Shown in pieces: positions 40,056 to 46,330 of a DNA stretch of 64,000 nucleotides. The notes under the pieces were generated by a model. It saw nothing but the letters and a program-made list of their open reading frames with translations. It was not told the DNA's origin and ran no database searches. A program made the translations under genes and the position numbers. The stretch lies in contig NZ_KB907215.1 of NCBI RefSeq assembly GCF_000381885.1, forward strand, positions 116,454 through 180,453, given 5' to 3'. Source of the DNA: Actinomadura atramentaria DSM 43919 (GTDB lineage Bacteria; Actinomycetota; Actinomycetes; Streptosporangiales; Streptosporangiaceae). Position 1 is the stretch's first letter, and the number at the start of each line of letters is the position of its first letter.

Positions 40056-41332
40056 CGGACGAAGACGCCGAGGCCGTTGGCGACGGCGCGCTCCCGCCCG
40101 TCGGACGGGACGTTGCGGACCGTCGCCCGCTTCGCGCCGCGCCGCCGCGCGACCAGCGTGGACGAGCCGCCGCCGTCCAGGTCCACGGCGTCGTCCGCGC
40201 CCGCGCGGGCCAGCAGCGACGCCAGCTCGGCCATCGTCAGCCCGCCGCTGCGCCGCGACCGCCCGTCCACGACGACGAGCTGGACGCGGCGGCCGTCGCG
40301 GCTCACCCCGGCGGCGGTGCGCGGCGCGGGCCCGGTGTCGGCGAGGCCCGGCAGCGGCGACCCGTCGCGCAGGATCGCGAACCCGCCGACCGCGACGCGC
40401 AGCCGCCCGGGGCCGGTCAGGCGGTAGCGGACGGACACCCGCTGGCCCCGGCGCAGCCCGCGCAGCGCGGCGGCGGCCCCGTCGCGGCCGACGAGGACGG
40501 TCGTGCCGCGCGGGATCGACCCCTTGCCGACCTTGCGCGCGACCTTGACGACCGTCCCGCCGCGCACCGTCACCTCGGCGGTGTCGGCGCTGCACGCGGC
40601 GGCGCGCGACGCGTCGCTCCCGCAGACCGCGCGCCGCCGCGACGCGCTCCCCCACGCGGCGGTGAACACGCCCGCGCCGCCGACCGGCAGCGCGTACTGG
40701 TTGAGGCCGCGCAGCGCGACGACCGCACGTCTCCCGACACGGACGGAGCCGGTGAGCCGCAGCCGGGCGACGCGGGCGCGGCCGTCCTTGCCGACGCCGA
40801 CGACGTCCTCGGCGGACGCGGCGCGCGGCGACGCCGGGCCGAACCGCTGCCCGGCGGGCACCGCGCCCTTCACCGGGCGGCCCGCGTCGAGTTCGGGTCC
40901 GGACGACGAGCCGGTCGCGGCGTTCGGACCGCCGCCCACGTCGAAGAAGTCGCCGTTGACGCCCGCGACGGCGTGCCGCGCATCGGCCATCGCCGAGACC
41001 GTCCGGCGGGCGGCGACCACCGGCGGACGCAGCAGGCCGAGGCCGATCCGGCGGTTCCGCAGGTCGACGTCCACGAGCACGCCCCGGACCGGGCCGCCCG
41101 CGCCGGACGCCGCGAACCGCCGCAGCACCGCGCCCGGCGCGAGCCGCGTCGCCTTCCCGAACCTGACGCCGCGCGCCACCGCGCCGTGGACGGGCCGGCC
41201 GGCCGCCGTCGCGACGCGCTCGCCCGAACCCGCGCCGTCCGGCCCGGCGGGCGGCGGCGCGGCCGCCGCCGGGACGGCCGTCACGAACACCGCGGCCGCC
41301 GCGACGGCCCCTCGCAGTCCCCCCGCGCCCAT
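40052..41332 (-). CDS. Secreted phosphodiester glycosidase family protein (NAGPA domain)
   Basis: A 426-aa exported protein: signal peptide ~1-25, a Gly/Ala-rich N-terminal part, then the NAGPA/DUF2233 fold. Marks of that fold are [15 protein letters not shown] (about 118-132), [17 protein letters not shown] near the end and [14 protein letters not shown]. The family cleaves GlcNAc-1-phosphodiesters or acts on wall polymers; the exact substrate here is unknown. It is in one leftward run with the small secreted protein upstream, 3 bp apart. It shares CTAG with the dtd stop. Confidence 0.85.
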
Positions 41333-43473: not shown

Positions 43474-44475
43474 TCAAGCGCGCCTGGTCGGCTGGCGGCG
43501 GAGGGCTATCTGGGCGTTCGCGCCGGTGTCCGGGGAGACGATGACCTCTTGCGCCGCCGCGACCCCGCCCGCGAGCAGTTCCGCGTCCACCGGGACGTTC
43601 CGCTTGACGAGGGCCAGCGCGACCGGCCCCAGTTCGTGGTGGCGCGCGGCGGAGCCGACGAACCCGACCGTCCGCCCGCCCGGGATCTCGACGGGATCGC
43701 CGTGGGCGGGCAGCCGGTCCACGCTGCCGTCCAGGTGCAGGAACACCAGGCGGCGCGGCGGGCGGCCGAGGTTGTGGACGCGCGCGACCGTCTCCTGCCC
43801 CCGGTAGCAGCCCTTGTTCAGGTGGACGGCGTCCTCGATCCAGCCCATCTCGTGCGGGATCGCGCGCTCGTCGGAGTCGAGGCCGAACCGGGGCGTGTGC
43901 GCGGCGATCCGCAGCGCCTCGTACGCCCACAGCCCGGCGGGCCGCAGCCCGGACGCGGCGGTGAGCGCGGCCAGTTCGGCGCGCGGGACGAGCGTCGTCG
44001 TCAGCCCGGCGACGTCGGGGAACGCGGGACCGGGGAAGGAAGCCGGCCCCGTCACGGCCGCGTACTCGCCGGTGACGTCCGCCACCTCGACGCGCAGCAT
44101 GAACCGCATCCGGTCGAGGAACGCGGTGAGCGCGGGCGCGGCCCCCGGCTCGACGTGCGCGAGCACCGCCTCCCCGTCGTCCACGAGGTGCAGGTGGTGC
44201 TCGACGCGGCCGTTGGCGTCCAGCAGCAGCGCCTGCGTCGGCTCGTGCGGCGGGAGGACGTCGAGGCGCTGGCTCAGCAGGCTGTGCAGCCAGGACAGCC
44301 GGTCCGGCCCGGTGACGCGGACGACGCCCCGGTTGCTCCGGTCCACGAACCCGGTCCCGGATTCCAGCGCCCGCTGCTCCTGCGCGGGCTCCCCGTAGTG
44401 GGCCGCGATGTCGTCGTCGGGCGCGTCGGCGGCGACGGCCCCGTGCAGTTCCAGCAGCGGACTCCTCATGCCCAC
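43474..44475 (-). CDS. YgfZ/GcvT-type folate-binding protein
   Basis: A 333-aa homologue of YgfZ, a tetrahydrofolate-binding protein needed for repair or assembly of certain Fe-S enzymes. The signature KGCYRGQETVARVHNLG carries the essential Cys223 (K221-E228). The N-terminal half has the GcvT-like VDRSNRGVVRVTGPDRLSWLHSL. Length is typical. It is 19 bp downstream of a Fur-type gene and co-directional, so the two are probably co-transcribed, linking metal sensing to Fe-S upkeep. Confidence 0.93.
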   Translation of the reverse strand: MGMRSPLLELHGAVAADAPDDDIAAHYGEPAQEQRALESGTGFVDRSNRGVVRVTGPDRLSWLHSLLSQRLDVLPPHEPTQALLLDANGRVEHHLHLVDDGEAVLAHVEPGAAPALTAFLDRMRFMLRVEVADVTGEYAAVTGPASFPGPAFPDVAGLTTTLVPRAELAALTAASGLRPAGLWAYEALRIAAHTPRFGLDSDERAIPHEMGWIEDAVHLNKGCYRGQETVARVHNLGRPPRRLVFLHLDGSVDRLPAHGDPVEIPGGRTVGFVGSAARHHELGPVALALVKRNVPVDAELLAGGVAAAQEVIVSPDTGANAQIALRRQPTRRA

Positions 44476-44494
44476 CAGCGTATGCGGCGGCGCG

Positions 44495-44908
44495 TCACGC
44501 GCGGCAGTCGCGGCACTCCCCGTACACCGTGAGGTGATGCACGTCGGTGACGAAGCCGAACCGCTCGGCGAGGCTCTCGGCGAGCCCGGACGCGGCGGCC
44601 GGGTCGGCGTCCTCGGCGCGCCCGCAGCCGCGGCAGACCAGGTGGATGTGGTCGGCCTCGGTCGCCAGATGGTAGTTCGGCGGGCCGTGCCCGAGATGGG
44701 CGTGCTTGACGAGACCCAGCTCCTCCAGCAGCTCCAGCGTCCGGTACACGGTCGAGATGTTCACGCCCTTCGCGGTGCGCTGCACCTCGGCGCAGATCTC
44801 TTCCGGGGTCGCGTGCTCAAGGTTCGTGACCGCCTCCAGGACGAGCTGCCGCTGGGGCGTGACCCGGTATCCCTTGGCCCGCAGCTCCTCCTGCCACGTG
44901 TCCGCCAT
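44495..44908 (-). CDS. Fur family transcriptional regulator
   Basis: A 137-aa metalloregulator. The winged helix (RVTPQRQLVLEAV, ISTVYRTLELLEELGLV) is followed by the metal/dimer domain with HIHLVCRGCG (His87, His89, Cys92, Cys95) and C-terminal Cys132 and Cys135 for the structural zinc. Whether it senses Fe, Zn or peroxide cannot be told. It is divergent from the small-ORF/structured RNA locus, with 29 bp from its start codon to that promoter. Confidence 0.93.
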   Translation of the reverse strand: MADTWQEELRAKGYRVTPQRQLVLEAVTNLEHATPEEICAEVQRTAKGVNISTVYRTLELLEELGLVKHAHLGHGPPNYHLATEADHIHLVCRGCGRAEDADPAAASGLAESLAERFGFVTDVHHLTVYGECRDCRA

Positions 44909-44937
44909 GAGCAGAGTCTATGTCCGCGAAAAGCCGC

Positions 44938-44967
44938 TTGCCTCGCGCGGCGGCGGTCGCATAACGT
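44938..44967 (+). promoter_or_regulatory. Candidate sigma-70 promoter of the small-ORF transcript
   Basis: TTGCCT (44938-44943) and TAACGT (44962-44967) are separated by 18 bp, predicting a start near 44974 and a ~26-nt leader before the 12-codon ORF. Confidence 0.5.
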
Positions 44968-44999
44968 GCAGCCACGCAGGAAAGGAGGTGGTCCTAGGT

Positions 45000-45038
45000 A
45001 TGAGTGACAGTAGGGCTTGCGAGGTGGCTGTCCGCTAG
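45000..45038 (+). CDS. 12-codon ORF with near-complete anti-SD match
   Basis: ATG 45000 to TAG 45038 encodes MSDSRACEVAVR. The ribosome site AAAGGAGGTGGTC (44981-44993) matches the complement of the 16S 3' end at 12 of 13 positions, far stronger than at any other gene here, with 6 bases to the ATG. The last codons and stop are in a hairpin (TGTCCG 45029-45034 with CGGACA 45053-45058). It is not followed by a co-directional gene; downstream lies only structured sequence and a terminator-like fold. One Cys codon is present. Known actinobacterial regulatory small ORFs are often Cys-rich, but this one is not clearly of those families. Confidence 0.5.
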   Translation: MSDSRACEVAVR

Positions 45039-45204
45039 TCGCCGTCACGCCTCGGACACGCCGCTCCTGCAGGCGAGCTAGCCGCCTGACGGGGCACGTG
45101 TACCGGTCGTGGACGCGACCGGCGAATTCCAGGCAGGCACCGGGCCCCCGAACCGATGGGCAGTCCTCCCATCGCCCCGCACCCGCGGGAAGGTTCGGGG
45201 GTTT
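45029..45204 (+). ncRNA. Candidate structured RNA: hairpin series ending in a three-way junction
   Basis: Consecutive stems are: TGTCCG/CGGACA (45029-45058), AGGCG/CGCCT (45071-45087) and CCGGTCG/CGACCGG (45103-45122). A 10-bp closing stem follows, CCCCCGAACC (45145-45154) with GGTTCGGGGG (45192-45201), enclosing two hairpins, GATGGG/CCCATC (45155-45173) and CCCGC/GCGGG (45176-45189). TTTCCCTATTC follows, so the last fold could be a terminator. The segment has no ORF of its own beyond the 12-codon one. No match to tmRNA, SRP RNA, RNase P or 6S RNA core motifs was seen. Confidence 0.45.
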
Positions 45205-45217
45205 CCCTATTCTCTGA

Positions 45218-45763
45218 TCACGCCTTCTTGAGCTGCGCGGAGAGATGGACCTGCAGCGGCTGACCCATCGCCGCCATCTCGTAGACCCAGCCGAGGTCCC
45301 GCGCGCCGTTCTTCTCGGGCAGCAGCCCGTACATCCGGGCCCCGGCGGTGACCTCCTTCGCCGACGCGGTCCGCGCGACGACGTCCGTCCGCAGCTCGAC
45401 GCGGTTGAACGCGACGTTCCCCACGTAGATCTCCACGATCCCGGTCGGATGCGCGAGCGTCACCTCGACCTCGTTGCCCGGCCGGGGCCGCCAGTAGCCC
45501 GTCTCGGTGCCGAGCGGCCGCCCGATCGTGCCGTCCTCCTCGATCAGCCAGGTCCGGCTCTCGTAGATCAGGAACGGCTTGCCGTTGTGGGTGAACGTCA
45601 CCTCCTGGCCGAACCGGAACTCCTCGATCGTCGGATAGTCGCCGACGCCCGCGCCCTTCCAGGTGCCGAGCAGGAACTCCAGCGGCTTCAGATCAGGGTG
45701 CGGGTCGAACTCCGGCTCGGTGCCCGCGGCGGCGTGCGTGGGATCGGACTGCTCTGACTGCAT
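45218..45763 (-). CDS. Nitrobindin/FABP-like haem-binding protein (DUF1794)
   Basis: A 181-aa ten-stranded beta-barrel protein. The family motif GTWKGAGVGDYPTI lies at about residues 33-46. The C-terminal helix-strand has VHLSAQLKKA, whose His fits the proximal haem ligand of nitrobindins. Such proteins handle peroxynitrite/NO. Related genes are found near YgfZ and Fur genes in other actinobacteria. It is leftward and convergent with the small-ORF transcript, whose terminator-like fold ends 14 bp from its stop. Confidence 0.9.
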   Translation of the reverse strand: MQSEQSDPTHAAAGTEPEFDPHPDLKPLEFLLGTWKGAGVGDYPTIEEFRFGQEVTFTHNGKPFLIYESRTWLIEEDGTIGRPLGTETGYWRPRPGNEVEVTLAHPTGIVEIYVGNVAFNRVELRTDVVARTASAKEVTAGARMYGLLPEKNGARDLGWVYEMAAMGQPLQVHLSAQLKKA

Positions 45764-45806
45764 GGCATCTCAGCCTAAAGTGTCGCGGCCGCGCCCCGGA
45801 ACGCCG

Positions 45807-45896
45807 CTACCGCAGCCGCGACAGCCGCACGACCAGCAGCACCGCGCCCACCGCGACGGCTCCGCACGCCAGGACCAGGATGATCGCGTTCGCCAT
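45807..45896 (-). CDS. 29-residue single-TM peptide
   Basis: A short ORF, MANAIILVLACGAVAVGAVL followed by LVVRLSRLR, gives one TM helix with a basic tail, a common design of real small membrane proteins. It lies 44 bp upstream of the nitrobindin-like gene on the same strand. The ribosome site is weak (GGGTGG at a long distance), so the call rests on composition and position. Confidence 0.45.
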   Translation of the reverse strand: MANAIILVLACGAVAVGAVLLVVRLSRLR

Positions 45897-45967
45897 GCCC
45901 ACGGGCCGCCACCCTACGCGCGACGGCCCCGTGCCGTCGCGCGCGGCGCGGGGTTAGAGTGCCGGGC

Positions 45968-46330
45968 ATGGCGAGATCTCTGGTGATCAAGGCGACGGCC
46001 GGCGCGGACGGCCCGGAGCGCTGCAACCAGGCGTTCACGGTCGCCGCCGCGGCCGTCGCGAGCGGCGTGCCGGTGTCGCTGTGGCTGACCGGCGAGTCCG
46101 CCTGGTACGCGCTGCCCGGCCGCGCCGAGGAGTTCGAGCTGCCGCACAGCGCGCCGCTGGCGGAGCTGCTGTCGGTCGTCCTCGCGGGCGGGACCGTGAC
46201 GGTCTGCACGCAGTGCGCGGCCCGCCGCGAGATCGGCCAGGACGACGTCATCGACGGCATCCGCATCGCGGGCGCGCCGACGTTCGTCGCCGAGGCCACG
46301 GCGGACGGCGCCCAGGCCCTCGTCTACTGA
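45968..46330 (+). CDS. DsrE family protein
   Basis: A 120-aa DsrE/DsrF/DrsH-like protein. It opens with SLVIKATAGADGPERCNQAF, has WLTGESAWYALPG and two Cys in VCTQCAARREIG at the position of the sulphur-carrying Cys of DsrE. It likely takes part in sulphur relay or redox, but that is inference. ATG 45968 is preferred to GTG 45959 (adds three residues). It is monocistronic. The 140 bp that follow are GCGGCGCG-rich and empty. Confidence 0.85.
   Translation: MARSLVIKATAGADGPERCNQAFTVAAAAVASGVPVSLWLTGESAWYALPGRAEEFELPHSAPLAELLSVVLAGGTVTVCTQCAARREIGQDDVIDGIRIAGAPTFVAEATADGAQALVY

Follow-up and report, generated by a model that had tools for sequence, protein, structure and literature searches.

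Several small RNAs (sRNAs) and leader transcripts are known in which a short open reading frame (ORF) and RNA structure meet. The dual-function sRNAs SgrS/SgrT, SR1 and RNAIII make a conserved, functional peptide. In the trp and erm leaders, the choice between alternative structures of the RNA depends on the translation of a short ORF, and the frameshift site of prfB (RF2) carries an internal Shine-Dalgarno (SD)-like sequence a few nucleotides upstream of the stop codon. Among actinobacterial small RNAs, 6C RNA and Ms1 are widespread. The element considered here is the Ms_IGR-5 RNA of Actinomadura atramentaria DSM 43919, which lies at 44974-45210 on the plus strand of a 64,000-nt window (contig NZ_KB907215.1, positions 116,454 to 180,453) and is present as a single copy in the 6.7-Mb genome. 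Its membership of the Rfam family RF02471 rests on a covariance-model score of 91 bits (cmscan, E = 6e-19), about twice the curated cut-off of 45 bits, with the match covering model positions 1-184 of 184. By this score the locus belongs to an sRNA family already known and is hence not new as a gene.

Ribosome reads over MS_IGR-5 have been reported in Mycobacterium abscessus and M. smegmatis (PMC4974804), where the M. smegmatis RNA is also named ncMSMEG15794c (PMC10454040). By RNA-seq or transcript mapping, family members are expressed in Streptomyces lividans (SLIV_16488; PMC8079986) and, as an sRNA unit, in S. avermitilis (PMC8780764). The open literature, searched also under possible M. tuberculosis names, gave no function for Ms_IGR-5 and no description of an ORF within it. 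The S. coelicolor homolog may be scr4389, a lead suggested by position. The reading that we favor, if by a modest degree, is that Ms_IGR-5 is a stand-alone, pseudoknotted sRNA that is also translated, is remodeled by its own translation, makes a functionless peptide and acts in trans.

The reading frame and its anti-SD complements

Positions below are on the plus strand unless stated otherwise. The ORF spans 45000-45038 and encodes MSDSRACEVAVR before its stop; it has 12 codons here and 10-18 in other members, with the frame kept across homologs. The anatomy was derived from 270 homologs plus 20 later ones obtained with a new 5'-domain model, and the ORF statistics refer to 240 distinct 5' domains. 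In 201 of these 240 a canonical start (AUG, GUG or UUG) follows GGAGGUGGU at a distance of 4-9 nt and opens a frame that runs to the stop. Shuffled loops gave 22 such cases on average and 37 at most; the two other frames yield two canonical starts each. In 200 of the 201 the stop lies exactly 15 nt past the first G of GAGGUG. Among the other 39, 36 carry at 4-5 nt a codon that differs from AUG at a single base (CUG, AUC, ACG, AUU or AUA); by chance a near-cognate codon is expected there in about one in five. The last three (L150, L153 and L225) have a shifted element with the ORF in a new frame. Counting canonical and near-cognate starts together, the start-to-stop frame is kept in 237/240 and re-framed in the other three. 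The stop itself, UAG at 45036-45038, falls at the junction of helices P3 and P4 and occupies the same place in 236/240 (UAG in 199, UGA in 27, UAA in 10).

The 20 later members came from a phylum-wide search with the 5'-domain model, most of them in families absent from the model alignment. In every one an ORF begins 4-9 nt after the SD (AUG, UUG, GUG, AUU or AUA) and finishes at the last base of the element. Nothing in this model presets the start or its frame; the model does end in CUAG, and UAG at that place is therefore partly built in. The peptides of these members are unlike one another (LHSTSGGGSS, LLKTSGGDCR, MHSDTAVTVEVTRR and IDNLPSWRCDRTGGGVSR), some being read in another frame.

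Upstream of the start, all 13 nt of AAAGGAGGTGGTC (44981-44993) can pair with GAUCACCUCCUUU at the 3' end of 16S rRNA, giving 12 Watson-Crick pairs and one G.U. For this comparison the 16S end GGATCACCTCCTTTC was taken from genus relatives because no 16S 3' end was found in the organism's own assembly. In the 6.7-Mb genome the 13-nt complement (AAAGGAGGUGGUC) is found a single time, and AAAGGAGGTGRTC likewise only at this locus; the complement is near-invariant among 133 aligned homologs. A second element, GAGGTG at 45021-45026, is complementary to the anti-SD CACCUC and ends 9 nt before the stop. It is identical in 240/240 distinct 5' domains, wobble positions included, an invariance that is partly built in since 120 listed pattern-scan loci were chosen for it and the parser demanded G[AG]GGTG elsewhere. 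Synonymous codons are never used in GAGGUG, and the constraint therefore acts on the RNA. The peptide is not conserved as a protein, as re-framed members give unrelated peptides and GAG GUG lacks synonymous variation. Since the frame is kept while the peptides differ, it is translation from start to stop that is under strong selection, and apparently not the peptide.

Near-cognate starts (CUG, AUC, AUU, ACG and AUA) occur in many members outside Actinomycetes, including Acidimicrobiia and Thermoleophilia (L078, L083, L113, L115, L116, L119, L121, L122, L178, L183, L187, L190, L193, L201, L330, L333 and L336, among others). IF3 normally discriminates against such starts, and a link to initiation fidelity is possible.

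Helices, pseudoknot and a proposed ribosome-driven switch

The minimum-free-energy fold predicted for this copy independently contains P1, P2, P3, P4 and a 3' three-way junction, P5 (-119.8 kcal/mol, z = -2.6). Covariation supports P1, P3 and a pseudoknot between the ORF and the loop of the 3' hairpin. P1 joins the 5' end (CGCA, 44975-44978) to codons 6-8 (UGCG, 45018-45021); 95.8% of cells are paired over its 4 bp, 133/133 homologs being paired at two positions, and two-sided changes at three of the four pairs were matched by 0/500 shuffles. P3 joins the last ORF codons (GGUGGCUGUC, 45023-45032) to a strand far downstream (GGCAGGCACC, 45132-45141). It belongs to the minimum-free-energy fold, contains one G.G mismatch in this copy and is 93% paired across homologs; its two-sided changes number 103, where shuffles give 24. 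In the pseudoknot, GGGCU within codons 5-6 (45013-45017) pairs with AGUCC in the apical loop of P5 (45162-45166). Its core (GGAC of the ORF with GUCC of the hairpin loop) is nearly invariant and 96% paired, with the compensatory changes GGAU/AUCC and CGAC/GUCG. The flanking pair is Watson-Crick in 90/143 against 35 in shuffles and takes all four pair types, and further types were seen by eye in later members (GUGACC/GGUCAC, GUGACG/CGUCAC and CGCGACC/GGUCGCG).

P2 is the alternative to the pseudoknot in the minimum-free-energy fold (GUCCUA at 44991-44996 with 45011-45016). Its core (GGUCC with GGAC) is 94% paired with zero two-sided changes, and CGAC breaks one pair. Stem 1 of the Rfam structure, SD GGUGGU with GGCUGCC, can pair in 88% of cells, which equals the shuffles, and has no two-sided changes; the comparison leaves it unsupported, not disproved. 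Downstream of the stop lie the P4 hairpin (45040-45124, arms 45040-45044 and 45120-45124 around a variable middle, from fold and alignment), a conserved GAATTCC-type linker (45124-45130, from alignment of the 3' part) and the terminator-like three-way junction P5 (45145-45201, outer arms 45145-45154 and 45192-45201), which is placed by the fold and conserved in position.

This arrangement suggests how a ribosome might act on the RNA. The near-perfect SD, held in a loop closed by P1, would capture a 30S subunit, and the ribosome would read 12 codons and halt at the P3/P4 junction. Because the 5' strand of P3 comes to an end at the stop, a ribosome translating the ORF would have to unwind P1, P3 and the pseudoknot but would leave most of P4 and P5 closed. 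With the stop codon in the A site, GAGGUG would lie 6 nt from the P-site codon, which is a usual SD spacing, so that a pause at the stop is plausible. Passage of the ribosome, perhaps together with this pause, would switch the RNA between closed and open forms. Such an RNA would report the ease of SD-dependent initiation and termination, with an output in trans via the freed 3' half, and Ms_IGR-5 is perhaps a ribosome-load sensor. The family, the promoter, the SD, the ORF with its re-framing, P1, P3, the pseudoknot and the absence of a shared downstream gene are drawn from sequence comparison; the switch, the pause and the output in trans are what we infer. A fuller version is offered tentatively and is on balance doubtful, namely that this is a phylum-wide RNA with the translating ribosome as its input, which is loaded through the SD and held at the stop by the second anti-SD element. 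The frame would be kept whatever the peptide, the pseudoknot and two helices would open at every reading, and the free-standing RNA would measure initiation or termination capacity and act in trans.

Several points weigh against a translated and remodeled sRNA. Both the transcription and the ribosome reads are known from published work in other species, and footprints on non-coding RNAs can stem from co-sedimenting ribonucleoproteins (PMC4974804). One homolog, L163 (L163:2001-2065), has no stop at the usual place and is not re-framed. The pseudoknot is not universal, since the divergent L150, L153 and L326-L331 lack its loop and have a simple terminator, with P1, P3 and the ORF retained. Some actinobacterial families seem to have no Ms_IGR-5 RNA. 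Finally, the homologs are related, so that shuffle counts overstate significance and the variety of pair types weighs more than the counts. As to L163 itself, UAG has become UGG and the frame continues for another 5 codons before it meets UGA; it is the only such homolog seen.

An earlier note, made from the sequence of this region alone, had described most of the parts, though not the assignment to RF02471. The promoter-like pair, the match of 12 of 13 bases to the anti-SD, the 12-codon ORF, the hairpins and the three-way junction are all present, and the end of the ORF lies within structure as it stated, with the stop at the P3/P4 junction. Its proposal of an autonomous RNA of ~230 nt with a ribosome-loading site agrees with the ~237 nt found, with membership of an Rfam sRNA family, with the transcription of relatives in other species and with the ribosome reads reported in mycobacteria. 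The start that it gave, 44974, stands as the probable 5' end; its end at 45204 falls short of the element, which reaches about 45210-45212. The suggestion of a "sensor of translation" is plausible and is strengthened by the conserved ORF and pseudoknot, the sensing itself being a proposal. Of what it had proposed to look for in a comparative alignment, stem covariation is borne out (P1 and P3) and the ORF frame is kept, but the short peptide is not conserved.

Predicted transcription unit, neighborhood and rival explanations

The RNA is preceded by a -35-like TTGCCT (44938-44943), with TTG conserved in homologs, and 18 nt after it by a -10-like TAACGT (44962-44967), conserved as TAnnnT. The TAnnnT motif is found in 205/239 homolog upstream regions (shuffles, 13), and together with a TTG 22-26 nt upstream of it in 145/239 (shuffles, 2), so the promoter motif accompanies the RNA across lineages. 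The probable 5' end is A44974, giving a length of ~237 nt. At the other end the TTTCCCTATTC tail spans 45202-45212 and the Rfam match stops at 45210, and the 3' end is probably near 45210-45212.

Autonomous transcription in other species would suit a conventional sRNA that acts by base-pairing or protein binding, with the 3' half as the regulatory part and translation merely protecting or maturing the transcript. Conservation of the GAATTCC-type linker and of the 3' strand of P3 also speaks for this explanation, which is unlikely but the most serious of the rivals. By itself, however, it leaves the fixed stop at the P3/P4 junction and the re-framing of the ORF unexplained. Leaderless mRNAs are common in Actinomycetota, and the RNA could instead be a decoy for the 30S subunit, occluding the 16S 3' end and tilting translation in favor of such mRNAs. 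The genome-unique, near-invariant 13-nt complement and the second, invariant GAGGUG would fit a decoy, yet a decoy has no need of the reading frame, start and stop that are kept across the sampled families, which makes it improbable.

The conserved ORF and start region and the ribosome reads from other species (PMC4974804) speak for a small mRNA, or a dual-function sRNA, with the peptide as its product, and a conserved start-to-stop reading frame, by which a dual-function sRNA may be recognized, is found in the 240 homologs and in 20/20 later members. Re-framing of the element nevertheless yields an entirely different peptide, and such residues as are conserved belong to codons that RNA pairing holds fixed and that show no synonymous change. 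A functional peptide was rejected on the unrelated re-framed peptides and the absence of synonymous variation in GAG GUG, and there is little to recommend this explanation.

The neighboring genes bear on the two remaining candidates. The local order is YgfZ(-) Fur(-) RNA(+) nitrobindin-like(-) DsrE-like(+) (43474-46330 of the window). As the earlier note had it, there is no co-directional gene behind the RNA, the nitrobindin-like gene (45218-45763, minus strand) being convergent with it, and the Fur-family gene (44495-44908, minus strand) diverges from it at a distance of ~66 nt. The order YgfZ-Fur-[RNA]-nitrobindin-DsrE recurs in relatives. In other lineages, where part of the neighbor ORF calls are heuristic, the neighbors include a PAS protein, citrate synthase, pdxH, gyrA, ligA, MazG, an MFS transporter and an aminotransferase, in either orientation. 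By these calls there is no common downstream gene across the family, and the variation between lineages argues against both a cis target and Fur control. A transcription attenuator or leader of a downstream gene would match the layout of short ORF, alternative pairings and terminator-like hairpin, but it is very improbable, given a convergent next gene here, neighbors of mixed orientation and function elsewhere and no run of one regulatory codon; an amino-acid attenuator was rejected for want of a repeated codon in the ORF and of a downstream gene. Least credible is the idea, raised by the earlier note, of an iron sRNA controlled by the Fur protein from whose gene it diverges: the adjacent Fur-family gene of this lineage suits it, but the linkage is restricted to some lineages, the RNA and promoter persist elsewhere without an adjacent Fur, and the 66-bp intergenic region, examined over 44905-44980, has no inverted repeat of at least 7 bp, so that Fur control was rejected as a family feature on sequence grounds.

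Mycobacteria-like genomes keep the neighborhood partly, with an extra plus-strand gene in front of the RNA. Elsewhere in the window, ARAGORN called a tRNA with undetermined anticodon at 40908-41004 (minus strand), which is probably spurious because an Rfam scan at gathering thresholds gave no tRNA there.

Distribution and comparison with known systems

The Rfam model matched 52/59 relatives, 250/395 class genomes and 57/296 phylum-sample genomes, many of these 57 scoring below Rfam's cut-off. The 5'-domain model matched 251/395 class genomes and, at E <= 0.01, 166/396 phylum genomes, of which the weakest may be chance. Among the matches listed, an exact-pattern scan of named genomes placed the element in Actinomycetes, Acidimicrobiia, Thermoleophilia (Conexibacter, Solirubrobacterales and Patulibacter, among others) and a few metagenome-assembled genomes (MAGs) labeled otherwise. 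By these matches Ms_IGR-5 extends across much of Actinomycetota and into other classes of the phylum. Copies in MAGs labeled Bryobacterales, Acidobacteriota and Truepera (L186, L190 and L225, with L280 similar to L186) may reflect transfer or mis-binning. Both models found no RNA in some class families, f38 (G133, G145, G156, G177 and G187), f26, f27 and f7 being examples, several of whose genomes are near-complete, and the absence is apparently a lineage-wide loss. Viral contigs and phage records gave no Ms_IGR-5 match and the sole match in a plasmid collection is an 11.85-Mb Nonomuraea replicon; a mobile-element or phage origin was rejected on these grounds.

If the favored reading of a translated and remodeled sRNA is true, a ribosome-operated RNA without a cis gene of its own would be unusual among regulators, and it would act in organisms where many mRNAs have no SD. 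An orphan RNA of mycobacteria and streptomycetes also gains testable questions: is it switched by ribosomes, and what is the role of its open form? Its peptide-independent, translation-coupled and pseudoknotted anatomy appears undescribed in the searchable literature.

How does this copy compare with the systems already described? It agrees with RF02471 in its full-length match, single copy and character as an autonomous sRNA. Rfam treats the family as a non-coding sRNA, in a structure that omits P1 and the pseudoknot, both of which covary, and the RF02471 cut-off leaves out many members beyond Actinomycetes; the family would benefit from a rebuild. Ms_IGR-5 resembles 6C RNA and Ms1 as a widespread actinobacterial small RNA but belongs to a different family, as the locus has no other Rfam match above its cut-off. 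With the dual-function sRNAs it shares a structured sRNA carrying an ORF, and unlike SgrS/SgrT, SR1 and RNAIII its peptide and even its frame change. As at the prfB site, an SD-like sequence stands shortly before the stop, although no frameshift site was seen in Ms_IGR-5 and pausing is suggested by spacing alone. In contrast to attenuators and upstream-ORF sensors, it has no downstream gene, no common neighbor and no repeated regulatory codon; what it would share with the trp and erm leaders, and with the topAI upstream ORF (PMC12121999), is that translation of the ORF selects the structure of the RNA.
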